A stretch of DNA of 43,257 bases from Saprospiraceae bacterium (GTDB lineage: Bacteria; Bacteroidota; Bacteroidia; Chitinophagales; Saprospiraceae): positions 1 through 43,257 of the forward strand of contig JADLCC010000130.1 in NCBI GenBank assembly GCA_020847425.1. Direction: 5' to 3'. The notes below the pieces were generated by a model. The model was not told the origin of the DNA, did not search any database, and saw only the letters and a list, made by a program, of their open reading frames with translations. Made by a program: the position numbers and the translations under genes. Each line of letters begins with the position of its first letter. Position 1 is the first letter of the stretch. Below, in pieces: positions 314-35,015 of the stretch.

Positions 314-3313
314 ATGAAAAAAACGCCTTTCCTACTCCTTTCTTCCGCGCTCTTCAGTTTTGCCCTGTTCAGCAATGGCGATCCCGAAGCAGAGCTCCGC
401 AAACCAGAAAACGCCGTCAAAAACCTGCGCATTGCCGACGGCCTGCAAGCGCAATTGTTCGCTTCCGAGCCCATGATGACCAATCCGACCGATATGGATA
501 TCGACGACCGGGGCCGCATCTGGCTCTGCGAAGCATACAACTACCGCCCCGAAATCAACGGCAATCCCGTGCACCCGGAAGGCGACCGCATCCTGATCCT
601 GGAAGACAGCGACGGCGATGGCAAAGCGGATAAAAGTACGGTGTTTTACCAGGGCCCGGAAGTGGAATCGCCCCTGGGTATCTGGGTGATGGGCAACCGG
701 GCGATTGTTTCTCAAAGTCCTTACCTATGGCTGTTTACCGATGAAAACGGCGACGACAAGGCCGACAAAAAAGAGATTATCCTGCAAGGTATCGGCGGGC
801 ATCAGCACGACCACGGCCTGCACGCCGTGGTGTTCGGCCCCGACGGGAAATTTTACTTTAATTTCGGAAATGCGGGCGAAATGTTGCAGGACAGCAAAGG
901 CCAAACGATCAAAGATGCCGACGGGAAAGACATCGATCCCAAAAACTACCGACAGGGCATGGTGTTCCGCTGCGACCCGGATTTTACCCATTTTGAAGTG
1001 CTGGGGCACAATTTTCGCAACAACTATGAAGTGGCGCCCGACAGTTACGGCACCCTATGGCAGTCGGACAACGACGACGACGGTAATAGAGGCGTGCGCA
1101 TCAACTACGTGATGGAATTCGGCAATTTCGGCTATACCGACGAAATGACCGGCGCCGGCTGGCAGCTCAACCGCACCAATATCGAACCCGAAATTCCGCG
1201 CCGCCACTGGCACCTCAACGATCCCGGCGTGGTGCCCAATCTTTTGCAAACCGGCGCCGGATCGCCCTGCGGCATGTTGGTGTACGAAGGCGATTTATTG
1301 CCCGAACAGTACCGGGGGCAACCCATTCACGCCGACGCGGGCCCTAATGTGGTGCGGGCATACCCCGTGCAGCCCGACGGCGCAGGTTACAAAGCCTCGA
1401 TAGCCAACATTGCAGAAAGCCAGGTGGACCAGTGGTTCCGCCCCAGCGATGTCTGCGTGGCGCCCGACGGCTCCCTGTTCGTGGCCGACTGGTACGATCC
1501 CGGCGTGGGCGGCCACCAGGCAGGCGATCAGAACCGGGGGCGGGTGTTCCGCATTGCGCCGGTTGCGGCAGCGCGGTACACGACACCTGTTTTTGATTTT
1601 TCAACGGTAGATGGCGCTATCACGGCGCTGCAAAACCCCAACCTTTCGGTGCGCTGGAAAGCCTGGAACGCCCTGCACAATATGGGCGCCGATGCCGAAA
1701 CGGCGCTGGCAAAATTGTATCGCTCCGATGCCGCGCCCCATCTCCGGGCCCGGGCATTGTGGCTGCTGGCAAAAAGCAATAACCCGATGCCATACATCCT
1801 GGCCGCCTCAGCCGATGCCAATCCGAACCTGCGCATCGTGGCCATCCGCGCCGCCCGGCAGGGCGCCGTTTCACTGTTCCCACTGCTTCGACAAATGGCG
1901 CAGGATGCCGACCCGCAGGTGCGCCGGGAAGTTGCCCTGGCCCTGCACCACCAAAAATCGCCCGCAGTGCCCTCAATCTGGACAACACTCGCACAACAAC
2001 ACGATGGCAGCGACCGCTGGTACCTCGAAGCGCTGGGGATCGGCGCCGACGGCCAATGGGAGGCTTGCCTGAACGCCTGGCAAAAAGCGGGTGGCGATAC
2101 CCAAAGCGCTGCCGGTAAGGATATCGTTTGGCGGGCGCGTTGCGCGACAGCCTGCTCGTTGCTGGGCCGGCTGGCAACGGACCAGCAGACGCCGCTGGAA
2201 CAACGCCTGCGTTATTTCCGCGCATTTGATTTTCAAAATCCCGCACAGGCTTCACCGGTATTGCTCAATATTTTGCGCGAAAATGCAACCGATACCGCCC
2301 TTTCTACCCTGGCTTTGCGCCACCTGGATGTGGAACTGGTGAAAAAAACGCCCGATGCTAAAATTGCGCTGAGCAAAATCATGGCGGGTTTGCAGGGAGA
2401 AGCCTACCTCGAATTTGCGGACCGCTACCGCCTGCCTGAAGAAAACTCACGTTTGTACGAACTGATTTTGAAAGGGAGCAACCCGCGTCGGGCTTCGGAT
2501 GTGCTGCTGAAAAACCCTGCGGGTGTGGCCATGTTCAAACAAACCATCCAGCAAAAGCGCAAGGATAAGGAAACACTGCAATTGTTGGGTGCGATCCGCT
2601 GGACCGGCGGCAAGGAACAACTCGCTATCCTGGAATCCGTAGCACTCGACCCTAAACGCGACGATGTGCTGCGCCGCCAGGCGACGGAATGGATCGGCAA
2701 CAGCTGGAATGGCGAAGAACGTATCCTCGAATTGCTCAAAGCCGGAAAAATTGAACCGCGTTTTATCCCCGCAGCGGTGCAGGGCGTAAGTGGCGCGTGG
2801 CGCATGGCGATCCGGCTCGAAGCCGCCACTTATCTGGGAAATGCCGATCCAAAAGCCGCACAAAAAATACCCGCCATGGCCGATCTGCTCGCCCTGAAAG
2901 GTGATGCGGCAAAGGGCGCTCCACTTTTTGAACAGTATTGTGCCAATTGCCACCAGGTCGATGGGAAGGGCATTGATTACGGGCCAAAACTGAGCGAAAT
3001 CGGCTCAAAACTGCCGCGAGAAGGGCAATACCTGGCCATTCTGCATCCCAATGCAGGCATCAGTTTCGGTTACGAAGGCTGGGAATTTAAAATGAAAAAC
3101 GGCGACAAAGTGACCGGACTCGTGGCCAGTCAGACAGAAACGGATCTTGTGCTGAAATTGCCCGGCGGTACTTTAAAAACGTACAAACAAGCCGAAATCA
3201 ACAGCCGCAAACAGCTCCCCGATTCCATGATGCCGGCAGGTTTTCATATTGTTATGAAAGAACAGGAACTGGCAGACCTGGTGGAATACCTGACGGGGCT
3301 GAAAAAGAGGTGA
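314..3313 (+). CDS. PVC-type heme-binding CxxCH protein: membrane-bound dehydrogenase-like beta-propeller, HEAT-like region, C-terminal cytochrome c domain
   Basis: Signal peptide-like N-terminus; ADGLQAQLFASEP/DIDDRGRIWLCEAYNYRP; C-terminal EQYCANCHQVDGKGIDYGPKLSEIG heme motif. Confidence 0.85.
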   Translation: MKKTPFLLLSSALFSFALFSNGDPEAELRKPENAVKNLRIADGLQAQLFASEPMMTNPTDMDIDDRGRIWLCEAYNYRPEINGNPVHPEGDRILILEDSDGDGKADKSTVFYQGPEVESPLGIWVMGNRAIVSQSPYLWLFTDENGDDKADKKEIILQGIGGHQHDHGLHAVVFGPDGKFYFNFGNAGEMLQDSKGQTIKDADGKDIDPKNYRQGMVFRCDPDFTHFEVLGHNFRNNYEVAPDSYGTLWQSDNDDDGNRGVRINYVMEFGNFGYTDEMTGAGWQLNRTNIEPEIPRRHWHLNDPGVVPNLLQTGAGSPCGMLVYEGDLLPEQYRGQPIHADAGPNVVRAYPVQPDGAGYKASIANIAESQVDQWFRPSDVCVAPDGSLFVADWYDPGVGGHQAGDQNRGRVFRIAPVAAARYTTPVFDFSTVDGAITALQNPNLSVRWKAWNALHNMGADAETALAKLYRSDAAPHLRARALWLLAKSNNPMPYILAASADANPNLRIVAIRAARQGAVSLFPLLRQMAQDADPQVRREVALALHHQKSPAVPSIWTTLAQQHDGSDRWYLEALGIGADGQWEACLNAWQKAGGDTQSAAGKDIVWRARCATACSLLGRLATDQQTPLEQRLRYFRAFDFQNPAQASPVLLNILRENATDTALSTLALRHLDVELVKKTPDAKIALSKIMAGLQGEAYLEFADRYRLPEENSRLYELILKGSNPRRASDVLLKNPAGVAMFKQTIQQKRKDKETLQLLGAIRWTGGKEQLAILESVALDPKRDDVLRRQATEWIGNSWNGEERILELLKAGKIEPRFIPAAVQGVSGAWRMAIRLEAATYLGNADPKAAQKIPAMADLLALKGDAAKGAPLFEQYCANCHQVDGKGIDYGPKLSEIGSKLPREGQYLAILHPNAGISFGYEGWEFKMKNGDKVTGLVASQTETDLVLKLPGGTLKTYKQAEINSRKQLPDSMMPAGFHIVMKEQELADLVEYLTGLKKR

Positions 3314-3340
3314 GAAGTGAGAGGGTGAGAGAAGTGAGAG
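3307..3340. repeat. Heptad array, GTGAGAA type, overlapping the stop codon of the cytochrome gene
   Basis: GAGGTGAGAAGTGAGAGGGTGAGAGAAGTGAGAG. Confidence 0.85.
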
Positions 3341-3515
3341 AAAATCGCTCTTTGGGCAAGTTCATAGTTTTAGTTTGGGTCTTTCAGGCCTGTATTTAGT
3401 GAAAATTTATTCGGGGGAAATGTTCAAATAACTGTAGCGAATATTAATCAAGTATTTGATTATCAATGTTTTAAAACATGTGTTCCATGATTTTTCGAAC
3501 GCTTCCGAGCCAGGC

Positions 3516-3632
3516 GAAGCGGAGGACTCTACGCCTCTCACTTCTCTCCCCTAATGTAGGATGCCTAACGTAGTCAGGTGTAATCGAAGTCGGCTCTCAC
3601 CCTCTCACTTCTCTCACCCTCTCACCTCTAAC
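3516..3632. repeat. Heptad array plus cores (CTCACTT type), partner of 3307-3340, overlapping the 3' end of the DMT transporter
   Basis: cgaagcggaggactctacgcctctcacttctctcccc ... gtgtaatcgaagtcggctctcaccctctcacttctctcaccctctcacctct. Confidence 0.8.
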
Positions 3633-7244: not shown

Positions 7245-7254
7245 CCCCTTTACA

Positions 7255-7419
7255 GAGGTGAGAAGTGAAAGGTGAGAAGTGAGAGACCGTAGATTACACC
7301 CGGATGTTTTTGGCATCCTTGATATAGATACAAAAAGTATCCGGGTGTAATCTACGGTCTCTCACTTCTCACTTCTCACTTCTCGCTTCTCACCTCTTAC
7401 TTCTCACCTCTCACCTCTG
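7255..7419. repeat. Heptad-arm hairpin between tRNA-Leu and tig
   Basis: 34-bp perfect inverted repeat 7272-7305 / 7339-7372 (GTGAGAAGTGAGAGACCGTAGATTACACCCGGAT), extended by further heptads. Confidence 0.95.
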
Positions 7420-14457: not shown

Positions 14458-14501
14458 AAAAAAACAACCCTGCGATGGTACGACCGCAGGGTTGTTTTTT
14501 T
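14458..14501. terminator. Rho-independent terminator
   Basis: AAAAAACAACCCTGCG-atggtacgac-CGCAGGGTTGTTTTTT. Confidence 0.85.
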
Positions 14502-14502
14502 G

Positions 14503-14599
14503 TTTTTAGTATGTAGTGTTTAGGGTACTTTGCCCAAATTACTTACAATGACCTTAGGCAAAGCACCCTAAACACTAAACACAAAATACTAAACACTCA
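14503..14599. repeat. Heptad-arm hairpin (CTAAACA type)
   Basis: gtttttagtatgtagtgtttagggtactttgcc ... ggcaaagcaccctaaacactaaacacaaaatactaaacactc. Confidence 0.85.
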
Positions 14600-16453: not shown

Positions 16454-17056
16454 ATGCTACGAATTACCCTATTGCTGCTACCTGTCCTTTTTTTGTTTGT
16501 AGCGGGCTGCAAACAGGACGCCCCTGCGTCGGCCCCGGTATCGAATGTCCCGCAGGTGGATACAGCCGCTTTGAGCCAGTTCAGACAAAACAACTGGAAA
16601 AACCATGGCTGCGACCTGATCACGGAAGCGGATATGCAACGCCTTTTTGGAATCGACCCAAAAGAGACCACGCTGAACGGGCGTTCGTTGCCCGACCAGG
16701 CTTTTTGTATTCATTCCTGGAACAGACCCGACTGGAAAGAACGCGAAGCCAACAATGAAAAAGGTGGCAACACCTTTATGCAAACCCGCAACAGCCTGGT
16801 GGTTCAGGTATTCAGTTACGGCACCAATGAACATGCCCTCCAGCAATTTGAAATGTTGAAACGCGACCGGCGCGATACCTACGAAGAGTCGATTACCGGC
16901 CTGGGCGACGATGCTTTGTGGGGTACAACCACCGTTACGCTGCTTGTCAAAAAGAGCCATCTGGTACTCAGTATCACGCTCGATTGTATGGATAATCCAC
17001 ACGATAACCTCGCCAAAGCAAAAGAAGTGGCGGCGGTAGCACTGCAAAAACTATAA
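16454..17056 (+). CDS. Putative lipoprotein of unknown function
   Basis: MLRITLLLLPVLFLFVAGCKQ lipobox; internal start preferred over the ORF-track start at 16217. Confidence 0.7.
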   Translation: MLRITLLLLPVLFLFVAGCKQDAPASAPVSNVPQVDTAALSQFRQNNWKNHGCDLITEADMQRLFGIDPKETTLNGRSLPDQAFCIHSWNRPDWKEREANNEKGGNTFMQTRNSLVVQVFSYGTNEHALQQFEMLKRDRRDTYEESITGLGDDALWGTTTVTLLVKKSHLVLSITLDCMDNPHDNLAKAKEVAAVALQKL

Positions 17057-17075
17057 CCGTGTAAACTTCCCCCTT

Positions 17076-17624
17076 ATGTTTAGTTGGATCAGTAAGGTCA
17101 TACTCCGGCTGTGGGGCTGGAAAATCACCGGACAATACCCCCGCGAACTGGATAAAGTAGTAGTGGCCGTTGCGCCGCATACTTCCAACTGGGATTTCCC
17201 ACTGGGTGTTCTGACCAATAGTGCAGGTAAATTCCGGGCGAATTATTTAGGGAAACACACCTTGTTCCGCTGGCCTTTCGGCTATTTGTTCCGCTGGTGG
17301 GGCGGCATTCCGGTCGACCGCTCGAAGAACCACAATTTTGTGTCTTCTACGGTCGAAGCCTTTCAACGTGAAAAACGGCTGCACCTGGTAATCGCTCCCG
17401 AAGGCACCCGCTCTAAAGTGGAACGCTTCAAAACGGGCTTTTACCACATTGCCCGACTGGCGCAGGTACCTATTTGCCTCTGCACCTTCGATTGGGAAAA
17501 ACACGAAATTTTTTTTGATCCGGTGCTGTTTTATACCACCGACGACGAGGCAGCCGATATTGCCTATATCTGGAATTATTTCAAGGGGGTGAAAGGCGCC
17601 AATCCGGAGAAGGGGGTACACTAA
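17076..17624 (+). CDS. 1-acyl-sn-glycerol-3-phosphate acyltransferase family (PlsC-like)
   Basis: HTSNWDFPLGV (HX4D-type motif) and VIAPEGTRSK. Confidence 0.85.
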   Translation: MFSWISKVILRLWGWKITGQYPRELDKVVVAVAPHTSNWDFPLGVLTNSAGKFRANYLGKHTLFRWPFGYLFRWWGGIPVDRSKNHNFVSSTVEAFQREKRLHLVIAPEGTRSKVERFKTGFYHIARLAQVPICLCTFDWEKHEIFFDPVLFYTTDDEAADIAYIWNYFKGVKGANPEKGVH

Positions 17625-17731
17625 GGGATGAGGAATGAGGGATGAGGAATGAGGAATGAGGAATGGCAGAGTGTGATGTCCGACATCACGCTCGGCCATC
17701 CCTCATTCCTCATCCCTCATTCCTCATTCCT
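17625..17731. repeat. Heptad-arm hairpin (GGAATGA type) between convergent plsC-like gene and lptB
   Basis: (GGRATGA)x5-GGAATGG-CAGAGTGTGATGTC-CGACATCACGCTCGG-CCATCCC-(TCATYCC)n. Confidence 0.9.
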
Positions 17732-17734
17732 AAC

Positions 17735-18475
17735 CTATTGTTCCATCACCTTCCGTTTCAACACGAAGTGTTTGCCCAGGTACACTTTGCGCACCATTTC
17801 GTCAGCAGCCAGTTCTTCCGCCGTGCCCGCTTTCAGGATATTTCCCTCAAACATCAGGTAAGCGCGGTCAGTAATGCTCAGGGTTTCCTGCACGTTGTGG
17901 TCGGTGATCAGGATTCCGATATTCTTGGTTTTTAGTTTGGCGACGATCGACTGGATATCTTCCACCGCAATAGGGTCGATCCCGGCAAAAGGCTCGTCGA
18001 GCAGGATAAACTTGGGGTCGGTAGCCAGCGCACGGGCTATTTCCGTGCGGCGGCGTTCACCGCCCGAAAGGGTATCGCCGTTGCCTTTGCGCACGCGGTG
18101 CAGGTTGAACTCGTCGAGCAGCAACTCCAGTTTTTCCGATTGCTCGGCCTTGCTGAGGCGCGTCATTTCCAGCACGGCGCGGATATTGTCTTCTACGGTC
18201 AGTTTGCGGAAAACACTTGGCTCCTGCGGCAGGTAGCCGATGCCTTTTTGTGCGCGGCGGTACATGGGCAGGCTCGTAATGTCCTCATTATCAAGGTAAA
18301 CTTTGCCACTGGTAGGCTGAATAAAACCTACCGTCATATAAAACGACGTGGTTTTGCCGGCGCCATTGGGGCCCAGCAACCCTACAATTTCACCCTGTTT
18401 GACGTCAAAGGACACGCCGCGGACTACCGTGCGCTTGCCGTATACTTTGATGATGTTTTCTGCTCGAAGAACCAT
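17735..18475 (-). CDS. lptB: LPS export ABC transporter ATP-binding protein
   Basis: Walker [53 protein letters not shown]. The ORF-track extension upstream of [10 protein letters not shown] is translated heptad repeat ([18 protein letters not shown]). Confidence 0.92.
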
Positions 18476-18476
18476 T

Positions 18477-18607
18477 GCGTGAATCGTGAGACGTGAATCG
18501 TGAGACGTAAATCGTGAGGCGTGAATCGTGAGTGGCGCTTCGCCCAAGTGTACCAGGTAAAGATTGGGCGAAGTGCCACTCACGACTCACGATTGACGAC
18601 TCACGAC
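18477..18607. repeat. Heptad-arm hairpin (GTGAATC type) between lptB and yqeY
   Basis: Eight left units ending GTGAGTG-GCGCTTCGCCCAA; four right units GCACTTCGCCCAAT on the opposite strand. Confidence 0.9.
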
Positions 18608-19047
18608 AACAATGCCTTAACTATTTCCGAAATCGCCCGGCCATCGGCTTTGCCGGCCAGTTGTTTGTTGGCGGCGCCCATCACCTTGCCCATATCTTTT
18701 GCGGAGCTGGCGCCAGTTTCAGCGACAATCTGTTTCAAAATGGCCTCCAATTCGGCACCTTCAATCATGGCAGGCAAGTAGCGTTTGATGATTTCAATTT
18801 CTTCCCGCTCTATTTTAGCCAGTTCTTCCCGGTCGTTTTTGACAAAAATATCCAGCGACTCCTGGCGGGTTTTCACCAGTTTCTGGAGCATTTGCACTTC
18901 GCGGGTTTCATCGATCACCTGACCGCTGCCGTCTGTTTTGGCCAGTAAAATGGCGCTTTTGATGGCGCGAATACCGCGCAACGCGATATCGTCTTTGGCC
19001 CGCATGGCCGTTTTCAGGTCTTCGTTGATTTTTTCTTCTAATGACAT
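18601..19047 (-). CDS. GatB/YqeY domain-containing protein
   Basis: MSLEEKINEDLKTAMRAKD...ALRGIRAIKSAIL; GKVMGAANKQLAGKADGRAISEIVK. Confidence 0.9.
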   Translation of the reverse strand: MSLEEKINEDLKTAMRAKDDIALRGIRAIKSAILLAKTDGSGQVIDETREVQMLQKLVKTRQESLDIFVKNDREELAKIEREEIEIIKRYLPAMIEGAELEAILKQIVAETGASSAKDMGKVMGAANKQLAGKADGRAISEIVKALLS

Positions 19048-19060
19048 GGTTGTTTATGAT

Positions 19061-19083
19061 GTACCGGCTGCTTTAACTGCCGG
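19061..19083. repeat. Single copy of a GTACCGGCTGCTTTAWCTGCCGG repeat (same family as 27099-27153)
   Basis: GTACCGGCTGCTTTAACTGCCGG matches the 27131-27153 copy read on the minus strand with one difference; overlaps the 3' end of the gene at 19073-20479. Confidence 0.7.
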
Positions 19084-20479
19084 AGGATTGATAACGGAAT
19101 AAACGTTTTTCCTTCACTAAACGCGCCACTTCAAGCGGCACTTTTTCTTCCCATCCCGATTTTCCCTGTTGAATTATTTCCAAAACTTCTTTGTGGTAAA
19201 TTCCCAGAATATCGGGGTTAAAGTGTTGGATATCAACAATGTTCTTGTTTTCGAGCAGGTAGTCGTACAAAAAATGAATATTAGCTGGCACCGGCAGATT
19301 TTGCGCGGTGATCAGTGTTTGGCTGCCCTGATCCCTGGCCGGATAGATATAAAAACGAACATTGCGCAGGAATAGTTCGCCGAATGCACCGAGCAGGTTG
19401 TCGGGGTTGTGTTCGCAGGTTTCCCGGACGATATTCCCGAGTTTGCGTACACCCATCACCAAACCGATACGCTGCACTTTGTAGTCGCTAAAATAGGCAA
19501 TTAGTTTCTTCTGTTGTATACAATTGGAGATAATCACCGTTTGCTGCAGCGCGCAGAGCATCTCAGCACGGTCCATAAAATCGCGTTCGTCGAGCGCGCC
19601 GCCTGCGCGGAGATTGTCGAGCGATATTTCTGTCAGAAAAAAACTTTTTTCAGGCTGCACATCCGGCTCGGCCTGAAATTGCGCGTAAGCATTCCTGGTC
19701 ATGTCCTGTTGCACCAAAGTGATCGGGCGGTAGCTGCCGCGTGCGATCAGAATGGATTTTTTGTACAAAAACTCGCCGGCGTGCAGGCTGCGGCCGTCGG
19801 GGCCGAAAATGGCCACATCCGTCAGCCCGTTTTTGACCATCCAGAGCGTGATAAGCCGGTTGTCCAGGTGCTGAAAATCAGGTCCTTCGAGCCGGATCAT
19901 GTCGATGGCGATGCGCCCGTGCAGGTTGTCCAGCAGCGATTGTATCAGCACTTCCGGTTCCTGGTGAAACCGGTGACAGGCGTACAACATATTGACGCCG
20001 AGAATTCCGACCGCCTGCTGCTGGAGCCGGTTGTCGTTGTCGAGCAGCCGTACATGCAGCACCAGGTCATTGGGCGCCGTGTGGGCTTTTAACTGGAAAC
20101 GAAGCCCCAGCCAGCCGTCGCCTTTGATGGTTTTTTGAAAATTAATGGCCGCCACAGTATCGGCAAAAGCAAAAAATGTCTGGTCGGGGCGCAGGGTCCG
20201 CAGGCGGTTTTCCATCAACGCATACTCGTGGTCGAGCATTTTGTACAGGCGCGATTCGCAGACATAGCGACCGCTGCCTTTGTCCTCCGTTCCGTAAATT
20301 TCGTCCGACACCGTTTTGTCGTAAGCACTCATCGTTTTGGCGATCGTGCCGGCCGCCGCGCCCACCTGGAAAAAGTGCCGCGCTACTTCCTGGCCTGCGC
20401 CAATCTCGGCGAACGCCCCGTATATCTGGTCGTCGAGGTTGATTTCTAATGCTTTTTGCTCGGTTTCGAGAACTCTCAT
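19073..20479 (-). CDS. Conserved protein of unknown function (~470 aa family shared with other phyla; database names unreliable)
   Basis: Long intact ORF beginning MRVLETEQKALEINLDDQIYGAFAEIGAGQEVARHFFQVGAAAGTIAKTMSAYDKTVSD, recognised from memory as a conserved family without established function. Confidence 0.75.
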   Translation of the reverse strand: MRVLETEQKALEINLDDQIYGAFAEIGAGQEVARHFFQVGAAAGTIAKTMSAYDKTVSDEIYGTEDKGSGRYVCESRLYKMLDHEYALMENRLRTLRPDQTFFAFADTVAAINFQKTIKGDGWLGLRFQLKAHTAPNDLVLHVRLLDNDNRLQQQAVGILGVNMLYACHRFHQEPEVLIQSLLDNLHGRIAIDMIRLEGPDFQHLDNRLITLWMVKNGLTDVAIFGPDGRSLHAGEFLYKKSILIARGSYRPITLVQQDMTRNAYAQFQAEPDVQPEKSFFLTEISLDNLRAGGALDERDFMDRAEMLCALQQTVIISNCIQQKKLIAYFSDYKVQRIGLVMGVRKLGNIVRETCEHNPDNLLGAFGELFLRNVRFYIYPARDQGSQTLITAQNLPVPANIHFLYDYLLENKNIVDIQHFNPDILGIYHKEVLEIIQQGKSGWEEKVPLEVARLVKEKRLFRYQSSGS

Positions 20480-20514
20480 TGTGAGTTGTGAATCGTGAGT
20501 CGTGAGTTGTGAGT
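20480..20514. repeat. Heptad array (GTGAATC type) abutting the start codon of the gene at 19073-20479
   Basis: gtgagttgtgaatcgtgagtcgtgagttgtgag. Confidence 0.85.
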
Positions 20515-20680
20515 TTGGATCCCTTCTGGCTTTCGTTTATAGTTTTATTTTGGGTGTTTCAGGCCGGTAATTGAGCGAGTAAATGCTTTTTAAAATATTG
20601 AATATCAATACTTTAGTGCAAAAAAATTACATTTTAAGAAATTGAAAAATCCAAACTTCACACAAACCCCAAGGGCGAGC

Positions 20681-20737
20681 GTCTCTCACTGCTCACCCTC
20701 TCACCTCTCACTTTTTATTAGCCTCTCACCTCTCACT
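20681..20737. repeat. Heptad array (CTCACTT type) downstream of thrB
   Basis: gtctctcactgctcaccctctcacctctcactttttattagcctctcacctctcactt. Confidence 0.8.
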
Positions 20738-20738
20738 T

Positions 20739-21668
20739 CTAACAAATCGTTGCTCCTTCTTGGTTGATCGGAGAGAGGAAAATGTCGCTTTCAATGTTAT
20801 GCTGTGCAAATGCCCGTTGCATTTCCAGTCCGGCCGTTTCGGCGGCAAGGCTGTTGGCGCAAAGCGCAAAAACTGACGGACCTGAACCGGAAATACTACA
20901 TCCAAGCACACCTGCCTGAGCCAGTGCGGCAGATTTGACGTCGTAAAAACCCGGGATCAGCGCAGCGCGTTGCGGTTCGATAATATCGTCGCGGAGGCTG
21001 CGGCCGATGAGGGCAATATCGCTGTTGTACAAACCCACGATAAAACCGCCCACATTGGCGCTCTGGGAAATATATTGTTTAAGTGATACGTCAGGTTTGA
21101 GAATGGCGCGGGCTTCCTTGGTCAGTATTTCCACTTTTGGGTACACCACCGTCACGTATAAACCCTTGGGAACGTGCAACCTGTGTACATCGAGGGTAGC
21201 GCTGTCGCGGATCAGCACGATACCTCCGATGAGTGAGGGCGCCACATTGTCGGCGTGGTAACTGCCCGAAGCCAATTGTTCGCCCAGACAGGCAAAGTGC
21301 AGCAATTCTCGTTTGCTCATGCCGGTGCGAAGCAGTTCGCTGACAGCCAGTACGGCAGCCACTGCACTGGCGGCACTGCTGCCCAGTCCGCTGCCGAAAG
21401 GCATTTTTTTGTGGATTTCCAGTTCGATACCCCGGCCTGTTTCACCCAGGTGTTCGAGCAGGCTTCGCGCGGCCACACCTGCGGTATTTTTTTCCACCTC
21501 GCTGGATAGCCGCCCGCCGTGTCCGGTTATTTTGGTGATGCGCAGCCCGGGTGTTTCACTTTTTCGGGCAACTACTTCGTCGCCGGGTCGTTCGAGGCAC
21601 AGGCCCATGATATCGAATCCCACGCCCACGTTACCGATGCTGGCCGGCGCAAATGCTTTGATTCCCAA
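20739..21668 (-). CDS. thrB: Homoserine kinase
   Basis: GHMP kinase motif KMPFGSGLGSSAASAVAAV; N-terminal APASIGNVGVGFDIMGLCL. Confidence 0.92.
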   Translation of the reverse strand: MGIKAFAPASIGNVGVGFDIMGLCLERPGDEVVARKSETPGLRITKITGHGGRLSSEVEKNTAGVAARSLLEHLGETGRGIELEIHKKMPFGSGLGSSAASAVAAVLAVSELLRTGMSKRELLHFACLGEQLASGSYHADNVAPSLIGGIVLIRDSATLDVHRLHVPKGLYVTVVYPKVEILTKEARAILKPDVSLKQYISQSANVGGFIVGLYNSDIALIGRSLRDDIIEPQRAALIPGFYDVKSAALAQAGVLGCSISGSGPSVFALCANSLAAETAGLEMQRAFAQHNIESDIFLSPINQEGATIC

Positions 21669-21723
21669 TGTGTCAGATGTTGTTGGTGATGTGATGCTGT
21701 TTTGGAGCGGCGCAAAGATATAA

Positions 21724-21897
21724 GATAGAGGTGAGAAGATAGAGGTGAGAAGTGAGAAGCGAGAGTCCGTAGAGTGCGCCGCTTCGTATTCGGCATTTTC
21801 AGAACGAAGCGGCGCACTCTACGGACTCTCACTTCTCGCTTCTCACTTCTCACCTCTATCTTCTCACTTCTCACCTCTCACTTCTCACCTCTATTCT
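21724..21897. repeat. Long heptad-arm hairpin (GTGAGAA type) between the hypothetical gene and thrB
   Basis: Left arm 21731-21787 (57 nt), right arm 21804-21867 (64 nt), identical apart from one extra heptad AGTGAGA. Confidence 0.95.
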
Positions 21898-23304
21898 TTC
21901 AAGCAGCCATTTTTTTGAAACGATATTCGGCATTTCCTGGAGCCGTTTTTTAAATTTTTCGACAGCCTGCGGATTGGAAGTATTCAGCGTGGACAGTTTT
22001 TTTAAATAAATCAGAAAGTTGTTATACTCTCGCTTTAAACCCTTGGAAATCACTTTGTTACGGCGCAGATATATTTTAAAACTGTCGATGAGCGAATCCA
22101 TGGCGAGGTACTCGTCCGACTCGTAGTAGGTGCGCAGGAGCACCAGTTTGGAGCCGAGTGCGTACACGATATCGCTGTATTCCACATCGCGCAGGAGTTC
22201 GATTACCTTGTCGTACTTTTTCTGGTGGGAATACAGGTTGGCGAGGTTGAAACTTCGGGCATTTTCGCGGATATTGGAAGGCAGGTACGGCGCATAATCA
22301 CGGATAAATGTTTCCACCCAGTCGAATTCATTCACCCGCAGGCCGATGGTGACGGTATTTTTAAAAACACCTTCCGAAATCTGGCCGTTTTCCAGCAGAA
22401 TACCCCACTGAATCGTGTCTTTGATAAGGTTAAAAAAAACGGAATAGTACTCGGTGCGGCCCTGGTTGATTTTGAGGGCGCAGTAGTTTTGGGCGGTTTG
22501 GTAACATTCCCGCAGGTCTTCTTCGGGCAAATCATTGGCAAATTGCTCCAGTTCGGACACCAGTTTCCTGAAATGTTCCTCCTGCTCCGGTTCGGTAAAA
22601 CAGGCGATCATTTTCTGGTAAACCCTGATTATGGGTACATCGGCAAATTTGCTGCCGTTGATGTACTCCCAAAACCCCGGAATGACCTCCAGTACCTGAT
22701 CGGTGGCCCGGAAGCCGCGGTAGTGCAGCCAGCCGACGTAAAATTTCAGTTTTTGAACGATGTAAAAGCACTCCAGGTAGTGATCGGCGGGCAACAGGCG
22801 ATCCATATACCCTGCCGTGGAGACCGTTTTGGAGGCCTGGTTGAAGTTTTGCACATGCTTCCTGAACTGCGCATAGTAATACTGTGAGGATTTTCCGAGC
22901 GATGCGTCGATGTATTTGTCGATCTGGCGCTCGACGCCCGCCTGGTGTTTTTTCAGTTCCTGTTTCCCGAGTAGTTGGTGCATATCGAGCGCTTCTGACA
23001 GCGGGTCCTGTTGCCGGGCTTCGGCCACCATGAATTGCAGGGTCAACTGCGTCAGGTCGGAGGCGAGCCGGCGCAGTTGCAGTTCGTCCGGCGGAATACC
23101 GGGAAAAAGTTGTTGCCAGATGCGTTGTTTGTCAAAATCGGCAACATTACCGGTTCCTTTTCGAAGGCTCTCATTGATGATTTCAAACAGCCGGGTGGCA
23201 TCGGGCTGGTCGTTGAGGTAGGGCGACAGCAGGTATTTGCGGAACCGGTTGAGTTCGGGTTTGGAAAATGTCTGTAGGAGTGTAATCAGTTTTTCACTGA
23301 ACAT
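21871..23304 (-). CDS. Conserved hypothetical protein, probably helical-repeat
   Basis: Long intact ORF (MFSEKLITLLQTFSKPELNRFRKYLLSPYLN...); C-terminal residues IEVRSER arise from the heptad array. Confidence 0.7.
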   Translation of the reverse strand: MFSEKLITLLQTFSKPELNRFRKYLLSPYLNDQPDATRLFEIINESLRKGTGNVADFDKQRIWQQLFPGIPPDELQLRRLASDLTQLTLQFMVAEARQQDPLSEALDMHQLLGKQELKKHQAGVERQIDKYIDASLGKSSQYYYAQFRKHVQNFNQASKTVSTAGYMDRLLPADHYLECFYIVQKLKFYVGWLHYRGFRATDQVLEVIPGFWEYINGSKFADVPIIRVYQKMIACFTEPEQEEHFRKLVSELEQFANDLPEEDLRECYQTAQNYCALKINQGRTEYYSVFFNLIKDTIQWGILLENGQISEGVFKNTVTIGLRVNEFDWVETFIRDYAPYLPSNIRENARSFNLANLYSHQKKYDKVIELLRDVEYSDIVYALGSKLVLLRTYYESDEYLAMDSLIDSFKIYLRRNKVISKGLKREYNNFLIYLKKLSTLNTSNPQAVEKFKKRLQEMPNIVSKKWLLERIEVRSER

Positions 23305-23505
23305 AAGAATACAGCCTGGTCATTTTATTTTAACACAAAATGATGAAAATCAGTTTTTTAGACAAAAAGTACAACTTTTTTTTGTCCGACAAGTTATGGA
23401 AAATGTATTTGAATAACGCCGAAAAATAACGAACCTTTGTATGCTGAGAAACTATGACAGAAGAACCCAACGTGAAGTGGATAATTTCCTGTCTTATTCA
23501 AAACA

Positions 23506-25830
23506 ATGGAGCGGATGCATAACCACCATAGAAGTCGATTTGTAACATGCTTCTTTTTGCTGTCGCTGATCCAGTTATGGGTTGGCAACACACTCCATGC
23601 CCAGTGCGAACGTGTCGGCTGGGTCGCCAGCGTAACGCCTGGTTGCGGTGTCAAAATCATTGACCTCGACAATGGTCAGATCCTGCGGGCTTTTGAAGGC
23701 GCTGCAACGCTGACCGGTGGACAAACGATCCGTTTTACCAGCGTGCCGGCAACGCTACCAGAGGGTTGTTTTTCAGAAGGATACCCGGTTGTTGCTTTAA
23801 GTTGTTTGTCGGATACTCTGCCGTGTGCCGCCCAGTTTGGCTATTTCGTCAGCATGCAGCATGCTTTTGTGTTGAATTTTGAAGCCAATGTATACGATGC
23901 TTCCGTGCAGGAATGCCAATGGGATTTTGGCGACGGACAAAGCGCCACCGGAAATAATGTGCAGCATCAGTTCCCGGAAGAAGGCGTTTACAATGTATGC
24001 CTGACGGTGAGCGATGCGTACGGCTGTCATGCTGAAATTTGTAAGGAAGTGACTGTCAGCACCCAAAACCCGAATGATTGCGGGTACACCATAGACGTGA
24101 CGGCAGTGCGCACCGATTTGTATGGAAAACTGTACCAGATCGAGCCTAATCCTGACTTGATTATCAGCTCCGTAGAATGGTATACGAGTAAATCCAACCA
24201 GGTTTTATCTTATGAGCCGGTGTTGTCCGCGCAGTTGCCGGGTTATGGCGATTACCTGATTTGCGCGCAGTACCAGGTGAAAAATACAGTAACGGGCGAT
24301 TCCTGCACAACCACCCGTTGCCAGCCGCTGATTGTTGCCGAAGCGGGCTGTAGAAACCCGGTGATGGATGCAGTGGCGACGATCTGTCCGCCGGTTTTTG
24401 CGCCGGTTTGCGGTTGCGACGGCATTACTTATGCCAATGAGTGTGAAGCCCAGGGTTCGGGCCTGTCCGTCTGGTGGGCCGGCACCTGTGCGGAAGCGAT
24501 GGGGACTTGCTCGCTCGATATGGAAACAAGTGTTGTTTCAGGCAACCCGGAAATTGGTTACACGGTGCGTTTTGCACGCGTTTCCAGCGATGATTTTGCG
24601 TATATCCAACTGGATTTTGGCGACGATACGCCCCTTTGGGAGGGCACGCAGTTTGATACACTCGAGCACACTTACCCTGCCGGTGGTATTTACAAAACCA
24701 ATTTGAGCGGCTGGATCAACAACAACTGTGTTTCGTCAGTTACGCAACTCGTTTTCACCGATGCGTACAGCATGAATGTGGAAAATATGCCCGGCGGCAC
24801 AGACTATGTAATGCCCGGCGACGCGAATGGCGACCGCGAGGCCAATGTGTATGATTTGCTGAATATCGGCATCGGGCACTACTCGGCCGGCGCCCCGCGC
24901 CCCAATGCCACTTCTGAATGGGCGCCTCAATTTGCACCGGCATGGCCGCAAAGCGTGGCGCAAACGGTGAACTACAAACACCTCGACTGTGACGGCAATG
25001 GCGCCGTCAATGCGCTCGATGCTGATGTGATTCTGGAGCATTACGTACCCATCGATACCACACAAATTCTTTCCACCGCCGCTGCGCCGCCGCTTTGGGT
25101 GTCGTTTCCGATGGATACGATTTATATGGATACGGATAATCCGCAGTCGCTGGAAATCACGGCCGACCTGATGCTCGGCACGCCGGTTCAACCGGCTTTG
25201 GGGCTTTACGGTCTGGCTTTTGCCCTGCGTTACCCTGAATTTGTCGACCACAACCTGTCGGCTAATTACGACGGTACCTCCATGTTCGGCATCAACCACA
25301 TGCTCTGGTTACCGAAAGATAATCACAGCCGCCGTCAACTGGATATCGGCCTGACCCGCACCAACGGGCAAGCGGTAAATGGTTATGGCCGGATTGCACA
25401 ACTGACTTTTCGCTCCGATTTTATCATCATTATTGATGTAGCCGACCGTACCGACCAGAACACGATTCCTTTCCATATCGGCGCGGCCGGTTTGGTGGCC
25501 GTCGATGCGCAGGGAAATGAAAAACTGATCTCTGTGAAGCAGGATACCTTGTGGATCAAACTAACGGGCACTTCTTCCACCCGTAACCTTAAATTGGATA
25601 AACTGATCACGGTTTATCCCAATCCGACGGATGGTTTTGCAATGATCCAGAGCAAATTCCTCGATATGCAGCAAATAGAGGTTGTGAATGTCCTCGGTCA
25701 GGTAGTTCATACCCAACAAAGCGATGGTTTGACAGCGCGTGTCGATGCACACAACTGGCCCAAAGGGGTGTATACCTTGCGTATTCGGGCCAAACAGGGT
25801 GTGGTGGAAAAGAGGTTGGTGGTGAGATAA
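23506..25830 (+). CDS. Secreted PKD / Kazal-type / dockerin-like protein with T9SS C-terminal sorting domain
   Basis: PKD ECQWDFGDGQSATG; Kazal CPPVFAPVCGCDGITYANECEA; GDANGDREANVYDLLNIG...DCDGNGAVNALDADVILEHY; VYPNPTDGFAMIQ...GVYTLRIRAKQGVVEKRLVVR. Confidence 0.85.
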   Translation: MERMHNHHRSRFVTCFFLLSLIQLWVGNTLHAQCERVGWVASVTPGCGVKIIDLDNGQILRAFEGAATLTGGQTIRFTSVPATLPEGCFSEGYPVVALSCLSDTLPCAAQFGYFVSMQHAFVLNFEANVYDASVQECQWDFGDGQSATGNNVQHQFPEEGVYNVCLTVSDAYGCHAEICKEVTVSTQNPNDCGYTIDVTAVRTDLYGKLYQIEPNPDLIISSVEWYTSKSNQVLSYEPVLSAQLPGYGDYLICAQYQVKNTVTGDSCTTTRCQPLIVAEAGCRNPVMDAVATICPPVFAPVCGCDGITYANECEAQGSGLSVWWAGTCAEAMGTCSLDMETSVVSGNPEIGYTVRFARVSSDDFAYIQLDFGDDTPLWEGTQFDTLEHTYPAGGIYKTNLSGWINNNCVSSVTQLVFTDAYSMNVENMPGGTDYVMPGDANGDREANVYDLLNIGIGHYSAGAPRPNATSEWAPQFAPAWPQSVAQTVNYKHLDCDGNGAVNALDADVILEHYVPIDTTQILSTAAAPPLWVSFPMDTIYMDTDNPQSLEITADLMLGTPVQPALGLYGLAFALRYPEFVDHNLSANYDGTSMFGINHMLWLPKDNHSRRQLDIGLTRTNGQAVNGYGRIAQLTFRSDFIIIIDVADRTDQNTIPFHIGAAGLVAVDAQGNEKLISVKQDTLWIKLTGTSSTRNLKLDKLITVYPNPTDGFAMIQSKFLDMQQIEVVNVLGQVVHTQQSDGLTARVDAHNWPKGVYTLRIRAKQGVVEKRLVVR

Positions 25831-25831
25831 A

Positions 25832-25948
25832 TGTGTTTTGGTGTTTTGGTATTTTAGTGTTTTAGGCTGGTAATGCCCGGCATATATTTATATCCGGAGA
25901 GCATTGCACCCTCTAAAACACCAAAACACTAAAATACCAAAACACTCA
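25832..25948. repeat. Octamer-arm hairpin (GTGTTTTG type) between convergent T9SS gene and capA-like gene
   Basis: gtgttttg gtgttttg gtatttta gtgtttta gg ... ctaaaacaccaaaacactaaaataccaaaacactc. Confidence 0.85.
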
Positions 25949-27070
25949 CCTGACCTCCGGCCATCCCAGCCTTTTCCTTACCCCGCTTGCAAATTTCAGC
26001 ATTGCTGCCCGGCTGGCGGGATTCATTCCATTAAAATATTCAGGATTGCGCTCCAGCATACTGACCGGAAGGGTGTGGTAAGTCGATTTTCCTGATGCTG
26101 ATTTATGGATGTAGCGCCAGATTGGTACGATGCCCTGCCGGCCGACCCGCACTTCGGGCGAGCCTTTTTTCTTCAGTAAATCTACCTGAAACAGGATGCC
26201 GCCGTCGGTATTGGGCTGTTTCTGATTGGAAATAAAATTGCCCAGCGAATACACCACGATGGCTTCTTTGGTGGAGCCGTCCGGCATTTTAACCCGTTCA
26301 TTTTTAATGGGTTGTACCACATGTGGATGCATGCCGATCACCATATCGGCGCCATTGCGGATCAAAAAACGCGCCAGGCGCTGCTGGTCTTTGTTCTCAT
26401 TCAACTGATACTCGATGCCCCAGTGCATCACGGCGATAATGAAATGTGGTTTGCGGGCTACAGCCTCCTGCAAATCGGCTTTCATCTGAACCGTATCGAT
26501 CAGGTTCACAACTGTAGGCGCTTCCGTCGGCACGCCGTTGGTGTCATAGGTATAATTGACTATGGCGATTTTAAACCCGTTTTTATACACCATCAAGGGG
26601 TAAAAAGCATCGCGGTCGCGCCTGTTTTTGAAGGTGCCGGTTTGTAAAAAACCGAGGTCGCGCACAGTCTGAATGGTGTGGGTGACACCCAGTGCATGCG
26701 CGTCGTTGGAGTGGTTGTTGGCGGTTACAAGCAGGTCGAACCCGGCTTCCTTGAGCGCGCCTGCCAGGTCGTCGGGGCTGCGGAACATCGGGTAACCCGT
26801 ATATGGCGCTTTGCCGGGCAGGGTCAGTTCCAGGTTACCGATGGCGATGTCGGCGCGCTCCAGAACGGGTTTGATGTATTGGAAACAGGGCGCATAGTTG
26901 TATTTTTTATTTTTCACCACTTCCGCACTCTGTATCTGGGGCGCGTGGCCCATGATGTCGCCGGCAAAAATCAGGCGCAGGGTATCGGTTTGGGCGCTTG
27001 CATGCGCACAGGCGAGCCAATACATGGCGCCTGCCAACAGGATGCGAAAGAGACTCTTTTGCTTGAGCAT
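25946..27070 (-). CDS. CapA family protein (PGA_cap metallophosphatase-like)
   Basis: LIFAGDIMGHAPQIQSA; AIGNLELTLPGK; VTANNHSNDAHALGV; GADMVIGMHPHVVQP. Confidence 0.9.
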   Translation of the reverse strand: MLKQKSLFRILLAGAMYWLACAHASAQTDTLRLIFAGDIMGHAPQIQSAEVVKNKKYNYAPCFQYIKPVLERADIAIGNLELTLPGKAPYTGYPMFRSPDDLAGALKEAGFDLLVTANNHSNDAHALGVTHTIQTVRDLGFLQTGTFKNRRDRDAFYPLMVYKNGFKIAIVNYTYDTNGVPTEAPTVVNLIDTVQMKADLQEAVARKPHFIIAVMHWGIEYQLNENKDQQRLARFLIRNGADMVIGMHPHVVQPIKNERVKMPDGSTKEAIVVYSLGNFISNQKQPNTDGGILFQVDLLKKKGSPEVRVGRQGIVPIWRYIHKSASGKSTYHTLPVSMLERNPEYFNGMNPASRAAMLKFASGVRKRLGWPEVR

Positions 27071-27098
27071 TATGGACTGAATGTCGAGTTTGTGTAAT

Positions 27099-27153
27099 GT
27101 GCCGGCTGTTTTATCTGCCGTTTGTAGTATCCGGCAGATAAAGCAGCCGGTAC
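27099..27153. repeat. Inverted pair of the GTACCGGCTGCTTTATCTGCCG repeat (hairpin) between nadA and the capA-like gene
   Basis: GTGCCGGCTGTTTTATCTGCCG (27099-27120) and CGGCAGATAAAGCAGCCGGTAC (27132-27153). Confidence 0.8.
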
Positions 27154-27158
27154 GGGAT

Positions 27159-28175
27159 CTACCCGGAAATCAGCCCCGCCTTCGCCGAAATGTCCAGCAT
27201 CCGGTCGATACTGGCCCGGCCTTCGCGGATAACCCAATCGGGCAACACGATTTCCGGCAGTTCGTGCTCCATGCAGAGGTAAAGTTTTTCGAGCGTATTG
27301 CGTTTCATGTGCGGGCAATCGTTGCAGGCGCAGTTGTTTTCCGGTGGCGCCGGAATAAATGTTTTGTGCGGGCTCGATTTCTGCATCTGGTGCAAAATAC
27401 CCGCTTCGGTGGCTACGATATATTCCTGCGATGGGTCGTTGATCGTGAATTTGAGCAATCCCGTTGTGCTGCCGATATAATCCGCCATGTCGAGAATATG
27501 CGCTTCACATTCCGGATGGGCTATAAACTTGGCATTGGGATGGCGCTGCCGGAGTTTTACGATACGTTCGTGGCTGAAAATTTCATGCACCATGCATGCG
27601 CCGTTCCAAAGCACCATGTCGCGGCCTGTTTTTTTGATCAGGTAAGCGCCCAGGTTTTTGTCGGGTGCAAAAATGATCGGGCGATCGTGCGGAATACTTT
27701 CGATCACCTGCACGGCATTGGTGCTGGTGCAACAAATATCGGTCAGCGTTTTGAGTTCGGCTGTGCAGTTGATGTAACTGACTACGATATGGTCGGGGTA
27801 TTTTTCCTTGAATTTGCGGAACAGCGCCGGCGGGCAGGAGTCGGCCAGTGAACAACCCGCTTTCAGATCCGGCAACAGCACTTTTTTGCCTGGCGACAAC
27901 ATTTTGGCCGTTTCAGCCATAAAATGTACCCCCGCAAAAACGATGATGTCGGCATCGGTAGCCGCCGCTTTTTGCGACAGACCGAGCGAATCGCCGATAT
28001 AGTCGGCAATATCCTGGATCTCCGAATCCTGGTAGTAATGCGCCAGGATCACGGCATTTTTTTCTTTTTTGAGGCGATTGATCTCTGCCACCAGATCGAG
28101 CGTGGGGTCCACTTCGAGGTCGAGGAAACCGACGCGGTCCAATTGTTGGCTGGCAGATGCAAGGGTTGCGGTCAT
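27159..28175 (-). CDS. nadA: Quinolinate synthase
   Basis: [67 protein letters not shown]. Confidence 0.95.
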
Positions 28176-28609
28176 GGTAGTTATCTGTTATTAGTTATCC
28201 GTTATCAGTTATTGGTTATCCGTGTTGATACTCAAGCATTTGCAAAAATTTAAGCGAAACTAATTTTGCACACCTACTTAGTAGAGTTAGGAATGAGAAC
28301 GATTGAGACGTGGTACTTGTTTAAATTTATCGTGTCATGGCCTTCCATTAATCTCGCGACAAAGGTATAAAAGTTCGAAGTCGTCAGTGCGAAGTCGTGG
28401 TGGTGTGAAATCTGTTAAAGTTTATGCGGTGATCGTTTGTACTTTTATTAGACTAACGACTTCGCACTTGCAACAGACTTCGCACTTCGTACTGACGACT
28501 TCGGACTTTTATACCTTTGCCTGTATCAAGCAAAATATTTTAGATTAGAATTTCGCAAATGCTTGAGTATCAACACGGATAACCAATAACTAATAACGGA
28601 TAACTACTT
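28176..28609. repeat. Nested double heptad-arm element between divergent nadA and the flavoprotein gene
   Basis: Outer 50-nt inverted arms 28194-28243 / 28555-28604 (one mismatch, GTTATCC type) enclosing an inner hairpin 28360-28519 of AAGTCGT type. Confidence 0.9.
28239..28268 (+). promoter_or_regulatory. Bacteroidota-type promoter inside the nadA/flavoprotein divergent intergenic element
   Basis: TTTG (28239-28242)-N18-TAATTTTG (28261-28268), same spacing as the tRNA-Leu promoter; the TTTG belongs to the repeat core. Confidence 0.5.
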
Positions 28610-28621
28610 ATTCCCAATCTC

Positions 28622-31303: not shown

Positions 31304-31312
31304 TAGAGCCCA

Positions 31313-32935: not shown

Positions 32936-34873
32936 TTGTCTATGTACATTCTTTCTACCATCGACCTGGTGATCATCCTGCTGTATTTCGCCATGATGAT
33001 CATGTTGGGTTATTACATGCGGAATCAAGCCCGAAAAAGTAAAGACGCCTACCTGATGGGTGGCAAAAGCCTTCCCTGGTATATGCTTGGGCTGAGCGAT
33101 GCGAGCGATATGTTCGACATCAGCGGCACGATGCTTTTGGTCAGCATGGCTTTTTTATACGGTTTCAAAAGCGTCTGGATTCCCTGGATGTGGCCGGTTT
33201 TTAACCAGATTTTCCTGATGGTTTTCCTGAGTCGCTGGCTGCGGCGAAGCAATGCCACCACCGGCGCGGAGTGGCTGGGCACCCGTTTCGGGCTCGCCGA
33301 CAGAGGGGTGGCGCAAAGTCACGTGATTGTAGTCGTGTTTGCCCTGTTGCTGTGCATCGGTTATATGGCTTATGCGTTTGTTGGGGTAGGCGAGTTTTTG
33401 CAAATCTTTTTGCCTTATGAGCGCATCAGCGGGATGTTCCCATTCCTGAGCCACGGAGAGGCGGCTTTTGCGCCCGGATCGGATGCGTTTAATGCTGCAT
33501 TGCAGGTATCCAAACACAATACAGCGCAATTCTATGGTGTGCTGATTTGCCTGGTCGCCACGTTTTACAGCATCATTGGCGGTATGCACGGGATTGTTTT
33601 GGCGGATTTTATCAAATACATGATTATGATTATTTGCTCGCTTTGTGTGGGTATTATAGCCATGTATCACCTGGGCGGAAGCAGTGCCGGCGTATTAAAT
33701 AATGTGCCGAATGGATGGGATACGCCGTTTTTCGGGAAAGAACTGGGGCTCGACTGGGCAGATAAAATCGACGCTGCCGCTGTGAAACTACAGCAGGACG
33801 GCTATCAATTGTTCTCTGCCATAGTGGGTATGATGCTGATCAGCGGCATCATGAAAAGCCTGGCCGGACCAGCGCCTAATTACGACTGTCAAAAAATTCT
33901 GAGTACGAGGAGCCCGGAAGAGGCCGCCAAAATGAGCGGTTTTATCTCGGTTATCCTGATGCCTATCCGCTACTTCATGACTATGGGTTTGTGTGTGCTT
34001 GGCATCCTGTATTTCAAGGACCTCAACCTCCCGAACGGTTCCGACGGCCTGACCAATTTTGAAAGTATTATGCCCGCAGTCATCAGCAAATTTCTGCCGA
34101 TTGGACTGATCGGGCTGGTGCTGGCGGGATTCCTGGGGGCATTCATGAGCAATTTCAGCGGTACCCTCAACGCCGCACAAGCCTATATGGTGAATGATAT
34201 TTACCTGAAATATATAGAGCCCAATGCTGCGCGTAAGCAGGTCATCACCATGAGTTATCTCAGCGGCGTTATTATGGTGATTTTTGGTATCGGACTCGGG
34301 CTGGTAATCAAAGACGTCAATATGATTTTCAATATCATTACCGCCGGATTGTACGGCGGTTTTGTATGCGCCAATGTGCTGAAATGGTATTGGTGGCGCT
34401 TCAATGCAACCGGTTATTTCTATGGTATGTTGGCTGGTATTGTGGTCAGTGCTATTCCACCGGCATTGTCTGTTACTGGTATAACCAACTATTTTGATGG
34501 CACGCGCATGTTGTACTTCTTCCCCGTGTTCATCATTATTCAGTTAATCGCTTGTATTGCAGGCACTTATGCTGCCCCACCCACAAATACAGCAACACTG
34601 TTGAATTTTTACAAAACGGTTCGCCCCTGGGGCTTCTGGAAACCTATTCACGAAATGGCTATGGCAGAGGACCCCGGATTTGAAAGAAACAAAAACCTGC
34701 CCATCAATATCCTGAATGTAGCACTGGGCATGGGCGGACAAATACTGCTCATGCTGCTGCCGATGTACCTCATCCTGAGCAAATGGACCGGACTGGGCAT
34801 CGTACTGGCTTTGCTGGTGGTCGTATTTGTCGTGATGAAACGTACCTGGTGGAACAGGCTGACAGATTATTGA
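32936..34873 (+). CDS. Sodium:solute symporter family protein
   Basis: Multi-TM; GYYMRNQARKSKDAYLMGGKSLPWYMLGLSDASDMFDISGT; GFLGAFMSNFSGTLNAAQAYMVNDIY. Confidence 0.88.
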   Translation: MSMYILSTIDLVIILLYFAMMIMLGYYMRNQARKSKDAYLMGGKSLPWYMLGLSDASDMFDISGTMLLVSMAFLYGFKSVWIPWMWPVFNQIFLMVFLSRWLRRSNATTGAEWLGTRFGLADRGVAQSHVIVVVFALLLCIGYMAYAFVGVGEFLQIFLPYERISGMFPFLSHGEAAFAPGSDAFNAALQVSKHNTAQFYGVLICLVATFYSIIGGMHGIVLADFIKYMIMIICSLCVGIIAMYHLGGSSAGVLNNVPNGWDTPFFGKELGLDWADKIDAAAVKLQQDGYQLFSAIVGMMLISGIMKSLAGPAPNYDCQKILSTRSPEEAAKMSGFISVILMPIRYFMTMGLCVLGILYFKDLNLPNGSDGLTNFESIMPAVISKFLPIGLIGLVLAGFLGAFMSNFSGTLNAAQAYMVNDIYLKYIEPNAARKQVITMSYLSGVIMVIFGIGLGLVIKDVNMIFNIITAGLYGGFVCANVLKWYWWRFNATGYFYGMLAGIVVSAIPPALSVTGITNYFDGTRMLYFFPVFIIIQLIACIAGTYAAPPTNTATLLNFYKTVRPWGFWKPIHEMAMAEDPGFERNKNLPINILNVALGMGGQILLMLLPMYLILSKWTGLGIVLALLVVVFVVMKRTWWNRLTDY

Positions 34874-35014
34874 CGTGAATCGTGAGTCGTGAGTCGTGAA
34901 TCGTGAGTGGCATCCATTTATAAGAACATACTCTAATTAGTTAATGAGGACATTCTTCTAACTGGATGCCACTCACGATTCACGATTCACGATTCACAAC
35001 TCACAACTCACGTC
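34872..35014. repeat. Heptad-arm hairpin (GTGAATC type) between convergent SSS and TraB genes
   Basis: Left arm 34872-34916 (45 nt), right arm 34963-35014 (52 nt): five versus six heptads, then GTGAGTGGCATCCA core. Confidence 0.95.
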
Positions 35015-35015
35015 A

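Follow-up and report, generated by a model that had tools for sequence, protein, structure and literature searches.

The focal hairpin and its neighbours in the window

The window, a stretch of 43,257 nucleotides, is contig C130 of a 5.9-Mb MAG (G000) in 628 contigs and carries the hairpins and arrays collected in Table 1. The focal hairpin has a palindromic core and a short loop, flanked on both sides by a heptad array. Its arms pair over 21727–21787 and 21804–21871 with one mismatch and a single 7-nt gap in an affine-gap alignment; the extra AGTGAGA lies in the right arm and adjoins the core GTCCGTAGAGTGCGCCGCTTCGT. The original prediction that the two arms differ by exactly one heptad at 21731–21867, with the extra AGTGAGA on the right, is thus borne out as a clean 7-nt gap. 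The arm lengths reported with it, 57 and 64 nt, hold for the matched part but not as full lengths, since the right array extends to 21892 by about three further units that have no left partner. The right array exceeds the left by one unit where the two pair, and by about three units in total. The stop codon of a minus-strand ORF (21871–23304) falls within the right array. This ORF encodes 477 amino acids, has no Pfam match and is conserved across the genus and the order, with many paralogues per genome.

Table 1. Tandem arrays and hairpins located in the window
Position	Strand	Feature	Basis
3310..3632	.	Two GTGAGAG arrays in inverted orientation, lying between convergent ORFs with ends at 3313 and 3597	
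7254..7418	.	Hairpin, GTGAGAA units, core CCGTAGATTACACC, downstream of tRNA-Leu (7163–7246)	
14498..14593	.	Hairpin, TAGTGTT-type units, between two minus-strand ORFs	
17624..17731	.	Hairpin, AGGAATG/AGGGATG units, six versus five	Tandem Repeats Finder
18498–18547/18564–18606	.	Hairpin, CGTGAGT/CGTGAAT units, left arm longer by one clean unit (7 nt)	
21722..21764	+	Focal hairpin, left heptad array, AGATAGAGGTGAGA... units	Sequence, Tandem Repeats Finder, repeat search
21765..21826	.	Focal hairpin, core palindrome GTCCGTAGAGTGCGCCGCTTCGT, 16-nt loop and complement of the core	
21827..21892	+	Focal hairpin, right heptad array, TCTCACT units, 9.4 copies	
25833..25945	.	Hairpin, 8-nt GTGTTTTG units, flanked by convergent ORFs that end at 25830 and 25946	
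28192..28606	.	Outer hairpin, GTTATC units, core GTGTTGATACTCAAGCATTTGC, between divergent genes	
28360..28519	.	Inner hairpin, GCGAAGT (ACTTCGC) units, nested inside 28192–28606	
34871..35015	.	Hairpin, CGTGAGT/CGTGAAT units, five versus six	

Chance formation of the hairpins can be rejected on two grounds. Control sequences drawn from a first-order Markov model of the window yielded no hairpin at the threshold used, with a best score of 52 versus 157, and the focal hairpin folds with z-scores of −16 as RNA and −18 as DNA. A search of viral contigs for the focal core gave no match.

The same one-unit offset had been claimed at 34872–35014, 17625–17731 and 28360–28519. The hairpin at 34871–35015 runs from the stop codon of a plus-strand ORF (32936–34873) to that of a minus-strand ORF (35016–35987); the 7-nt gap appears once the alignment is extended beyond both stop codons, but a gap-free alignment scores nearly as well. 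The hairpin at 17624–17731, which begins at the stop codon of a plus-strand ORF (17076–17624) and belongs to a family that is multicopy in G000 and in its relative G006, does have six versus five units, but the difference lies at the outer end and the best alignment is gapless. An extra ACTTCG(C/T) unit is present in the right arm of the inner hairpin, where the aligner however places a 9-nt gap. A clean one-unit case that the original list did not contain lies at 18498–18606. Between the convergent ORFs at 3310–3632, both stop codons fall at or within the arrays. Copies of the outer-hairpin arm at 28192–28606 are dispersed as a repeat family through G000 and G006. Two unit families are nested at this site, GTTATC outside and GCGAAGT inside, and elements within elements also occur in relatives; the nesting points to insertion close to the loop or to growth from the base.

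Hairpins with tandem arms in the genus

The closest named relatives are a Saprospiraceae MAG (JALHMA, G006), a Bacteroidota MAG (JAKQJD, G016) and a Bacteroidetes MAG (JAIUPL, G034). Non-coding hairpins were collected with a gapped palindrome finder from sampled stretches of 23 genus members, and the genome-wide figures rest on these samples; most of the genomes are short-read MAGs, in which some unit counts may be assembly error. Hairpin density was 2.0–2.5 per 10 kb in G000, G006, G016, G028, G034 and G021, and 0–0.7 in the other genus members. The clade of five genomes formed by G000, G006, G016, G028 and G034 contributed 244 hairpins, 160 of them with tandem arms, whose period was 7 in 116, 8 in 26, 10 in 11 and 9 in 7.

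Unit families vary by locus and species and include GTGAGAA, CGTGAGT, GTCCTGA, AGGAATG, GTTATC, GTTATGA, GCGAAGT, GTGTTTTG and GTTGATGAGG. Some of them have the core CCGTAGAGTRYRCC in common, and several are dispersed repeats common to G000 and G006, mostly at 82–95% identity. Each palindrome may be pictured as a family core beside the loop plus an outer tandem array, mostly of 7-nt units, that would start at the neighbouring stop codon. In the five genomes, 5' arms are rich in G+T whichever strand is read (mean 0.61 over the outer 28 nt of period-7 arms, and above 0.5 in 82%).

Whole units are gained or lost in one arm

Genus-wide, among inter-arm gaps longer than 1 nt, 18 of the 38 in period-7 hairpins measured exactly 7 nt, versus 5 of the 74 in the others (Fisher p=1.3e-6); gaps of 1–6 nt also occur. 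Contigs C157 and C249 of G016 represent two haplotypes that are 92–94% identical. They share a GCGAAGT/ACTTCGC hairpin, of the same unit family as the inner hairpin at 28360–28519, in which one haplotype carries one more ACTTCGC in the right arm while the number of left-arm units is equal in both. In a second G016 hairpin, the haplotypes share an identical left array and one of them carries an additional 8-nt unit on the right. Sister haplotypes thus differ by a whole-unit indel that affects a single arm. The expectation that units come and go whole agrees with both the 7-nt gap excess and the presence or absence of ACTTCGC in G016. The original prediction had proposed comparing these loci in close strains; the G016 pair showed the whole-unit change in one arm only.

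The one-unit offset would then be a whole-unit insertion or deletion in one arm, probably through replication slippage within the tandem array. In most genomes, heptanucleotide repeats have been noted as the most frequent class, with polymerase slippage named as their source (Mrazek 2007, as cited in PMC4679880). Single-arm whole-unit indels and period-specific gaps together support slippage in one arm, and an enzyme is therefore unneeded. An enzyme that adds 7-nt units had been put forward as the alternative. It would resemble telomerase or a reverse transcriptase and act on hairpin ends, and the dominance of period 7 (116 of the 160 tandem hairpins in the clade) would fit it. Against it, the same genomes also have arms built of 8-, 9- and 10-nt units, and gaps of 1–6 nt; many unrelated unit sequences stand side by side; the observed unit changes are internal and confined to one arm; and in many bacteria heptamers outnumber other simple repeats, which the account of Mrazek 2007 given in PMC4679880 puts down to polymerase slippage. 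We regard such an enzyme as extremely improbable. Another explanation, that short-read unit counts are unreliable and the one-unit offsets artefactual, draws on two contigs of G000, C312 and C601, which are perfect head-to-head palindromes folded at a hairpin; assembly can therefore fail at these structures. The gap length is however specific to the unit length, and the G016 haplotypes are real alleles, because they differ at many flanking sites too. Assembly error is accordingly a very unlikely source of the offsets. The two contigs, of 33084 nt (C312) and 23298 nt (C601), were covered to 3.5 and 8.4 kb, respectively, in either direction from the contig midpoint and are perfect palindromes over that stretch, most likely by assembly fold-back; linear hairpin-ended DNA would give an identical picture.

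Hairpins are seated at stop codons and their junctions are conserved

On the stop side of genes, the median distance from stop codon to arm was 0 nt, and the stop codon lay inside the arm in 81 of 179 cases. Gene calls were simple longest ORFs, and start-side distances are rough. Stops in all three frames were found in 68 of 116 period-7 arms when read inward versus 17 of 116 when read outward. Junctions with hairpins were convergent in 85 cases and divergent in 29 (p=1.5e-7). The idea that a stop codon is a universal part of the unit holds for most unit families and fails for GTGTTTTG and GTCAACA.

Mapping of 28 hairpin junctions between G034 and G028 located a hairpin in both genomes at 24, and at 12 of these the two hairpins were unrelated in sequence. 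Junction occupancy between the same genomes was 19 of 24 where a hairpin was present versus 2 of 37 where it was absent. The four mapped junctions at which a hairpin was missing concern other elements or a degenerate remnant. The hairpins are thus anchored at stop codons, at junctions that are conserved while the sequences are swapped.

A terminator scan of 14001–34000, with a loop limit of 8, listed no heptad hairpin, and the sequence just after the focal hairpin has no run of T. The hairpins have no T-run and are not classical terminators. They would more probably be bidirectional 3'-end structures, terminator-like or protecting mRNA ends, for which the junction would be kept and the sequence free to change. 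A 3'-end, terminator-like role appears the most likely function.

The two arms of a hairpin are matched to each other

In the GTCCTGA family (50 hairpins from G034 and G028), an arm agreed with its own partner at 0.901 versus 0.801 with the arms of other copies, and the maximum among 2000 permutations was 0.826. The own-arm excess was greatest beside the loop (0.905 versus 0.756) and smallest in the outer units (0.847 versus 0.791). Transversions made up 122 of 223 matched variant cells; a G-U intermediate cannot account for these. The GTGAGAA family of G000 (8 hairpins) behaved like GTCCTGA (0.729 versus 0.523), and the own-arm excess of the CGTGAGT family of G000 (12 hairpins) was not significant. 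Matching of the arms is therefore real; it fits template-switch correction, as well as replacement by family copies or selection.

Co-located hairpins of the same family in G034 and G028 differed by 55 compensated double changes where about 8 were expected, half of them transversions. Most of these pairs are not nearest relatives within the family (ranks 10, 1, 27, 27, 3 and 4 of 29). Copy replacement could therefore yield the double changes, since co-located pairs are mostly no closer than other copies, and this control weakens the double changes as proof of arm correction. The arm-to-arm correction proposed originally is thus partly supported by the own-arm agreement and the double changes, but replacement can mimic the pattern. 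In the closest pair, the G016 haplotypes, the unit indel is confined to one arm, and so are all four stem substitutions in the same hairpin, with no compensated change. G007 and G009, about 96% identical and nearly complete, were tried as a strain pair, but no more than three hairpins could be mapped between them, and these all belong to other kinds of element.

The arms would match because the two are produced or corrected jointly. The most likely route would combine template switching at the hairpin (quasipalindrome correction) with the overwriting of entire hairpins by other copies.

Alternative origins of the matched arms

Two further explanations bear on the matched arms. Selection alone could preserve a 3'-end RNA hairpin through compensatory mutations, with the arms mutating independently; the location at stop codons, the convergent bias, the conserved junction occupancy and the pairing that is best beside the loop all agree with it. 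It is nevertheless unlikely to suffice, since about every second matched variant is a transversion, whose intermediate is unpaired, and since variants of whole units have their mirror image in the opposite arm. Alternatively, the hairpins could be mobile palindromic elements, REP- or MITE-like, inserted whole or overwritten by another copy, with arms matched from birth and an offset introduced by later slippage in one arm, so that no arm correction is needed. In keeping with this, families share cores and are dispersed within and between genomes at 80–93% identity, half of the co-located G034/G028 hairpins are unrelated, and the same-family ones are mostly not nearest relatives. The diversified families nevertheless require matched two-arm changes at some stage, and genes for REP-associated tyrosine transposases (RAYT) do not clearly follow hairpin density. 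Heptad-armed hairpins showed no target-site duplication, and none of the 28 mapped junctions gave a clean empty site for one; the clean empty sites that were seen belong to other elements. We consider such mobility a serious possibility, at somewhat less than even odds.

Spread driven by RAYT was considered and set aside: the presence of Y1_Tnp at first followed hairpin density (p=0.008), but the specific RAYT model does not. RAYT genes lie on contigs C204, C557 and C479 of G000 and on C19 of G028. Matches to NF047646 (RAYT) above the cut-off were found in G000 and G028, the hairpin-dense G016 gave a 33-bit match only, and the hairpin-poor G008 and G031 had 12 and 6 matches. The two high-scoring Y1 proteins examined, one each in G018 and G026, both show Y...Q..HH, the signature of the IS200-like subclass 1.2 (PMC6006769).

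We conclude, with a probability of about 0.6, that the focal hairpin belongs to a large, lineage-specific group of dispersed intergenic palindromes whose arms slip, whose two arms are maintained as a pair and which act at 3' ends. A wider proposal is more doubtful and is offered tentatively: at gene ends throughout the genus, the position of the hairpin may be conserved while both arms are repeatedly rewritten together, through template switching or copy replacement and with slipping heptads as raw material, so that the structure would be inherited and the sequence not.

The offset itself is ordinary slippage; what is unusual is the hairpin system around it. Each genome holds hundreds of natural trials in which long hairpin arms are kept alike while the sequence turns over between species about 87% identical. 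The question of palindrome upkeep, by template switching, selection or copy replacement, becomes testable with strain-level long reads, and the seat of the arms at stop codons bears on transcript ends in these Bacteroidota.

Relation to known repeat systems

Arrays of the heptamer TAACTGA have been described in Beggiatoaceae, Cyanobacteria and Bacteroidetes (MacGregor 2015, PMC4679880). Like the hairpins studied here, those repeats consist of intergenic 7-nt units close to start or stop codons, occur in several Bacteroidetes and include mixed heptamers, and the GTTATC family of the window is of their unit type (GATAACT...). They are however mostly direct repeats of one unit, with one inverted case in 170 sets, whereas here the arrays build the two arms of hairpins, with many unit families side by side. 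The hairpins thus share the intergenic tandem 7-nt units near start and stop codons, and not the single genome-wide unit in direct orientation.

REP, BIME and REPIN sequences (PMC3733652, PMC6006769) are likewise dispersed intergenic multicopy palindromes, in families with compensated stem variants. A REP is a palindrome of 20–40 bp with an unpaired GTAG/GTGG or CGTC tag at its foot. No such tag was found here: GTAG occurs only within the paired core of some families (CCGTAGAGT) and is absent from the CGTGAGT, GTGTTTTG and GTTGATGAGG families. REP stems are 5–13 bp, in contrast to the 30–70 bp with tandem arrays seen here, which also show no clear co-distribution with RAYT genes. An atypical RAYT subclass of Bacteroidetes (2.6) is flanked by unusual structures that are copied elsewhere in the genome (PMC6006769, PMC3733652).

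Template switching at quasipalindromes (PMC8794818, PMC7202029) predicts matched multi-base and transversion changes in both arms of an imperfect hairpin. It is documented for short quasipalindromes and RNA genes, whereas here it would act on heptad-armed hairpins across whole genomes. Intrinsic (rho-independent) terminators are similar in placing a strong hairpin straight after stop codons with a convergent bias, but differ in that the present hairpins lack a U-tract, have far longer stems and are swapped in sequence between close species. Perfect inverted repeats are enriched after stop codons in all bacterial phyla (PMC13155455). The literature searched held no description of heptad-armed hairpins in Saprospiraceae, an absence that is not proof, and the combination of slipping heptad arms with a seat at stop codons was not met there; the individual parts have known relatives.

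Other palindromic elements in the genus

Elements of other types were seen in the same comparisons. At about 828062–828144 of G007 contig C2, an element with ends AAAAACTTAGGCAG...CTGCCTAAGTTTTTACG contains a nested ACAGGATTTACA hairpin, and the mapped site in G009 is without the element. On contig C17 of G034, palindromic elements of about 160 nt with ends GAGCGTGTT...AACACGCTC lie at about 178921–179081 and 205027–205195, and the corresponding junctions of G028 are empty; with these clean empty sites, the elements appear MITE-like.
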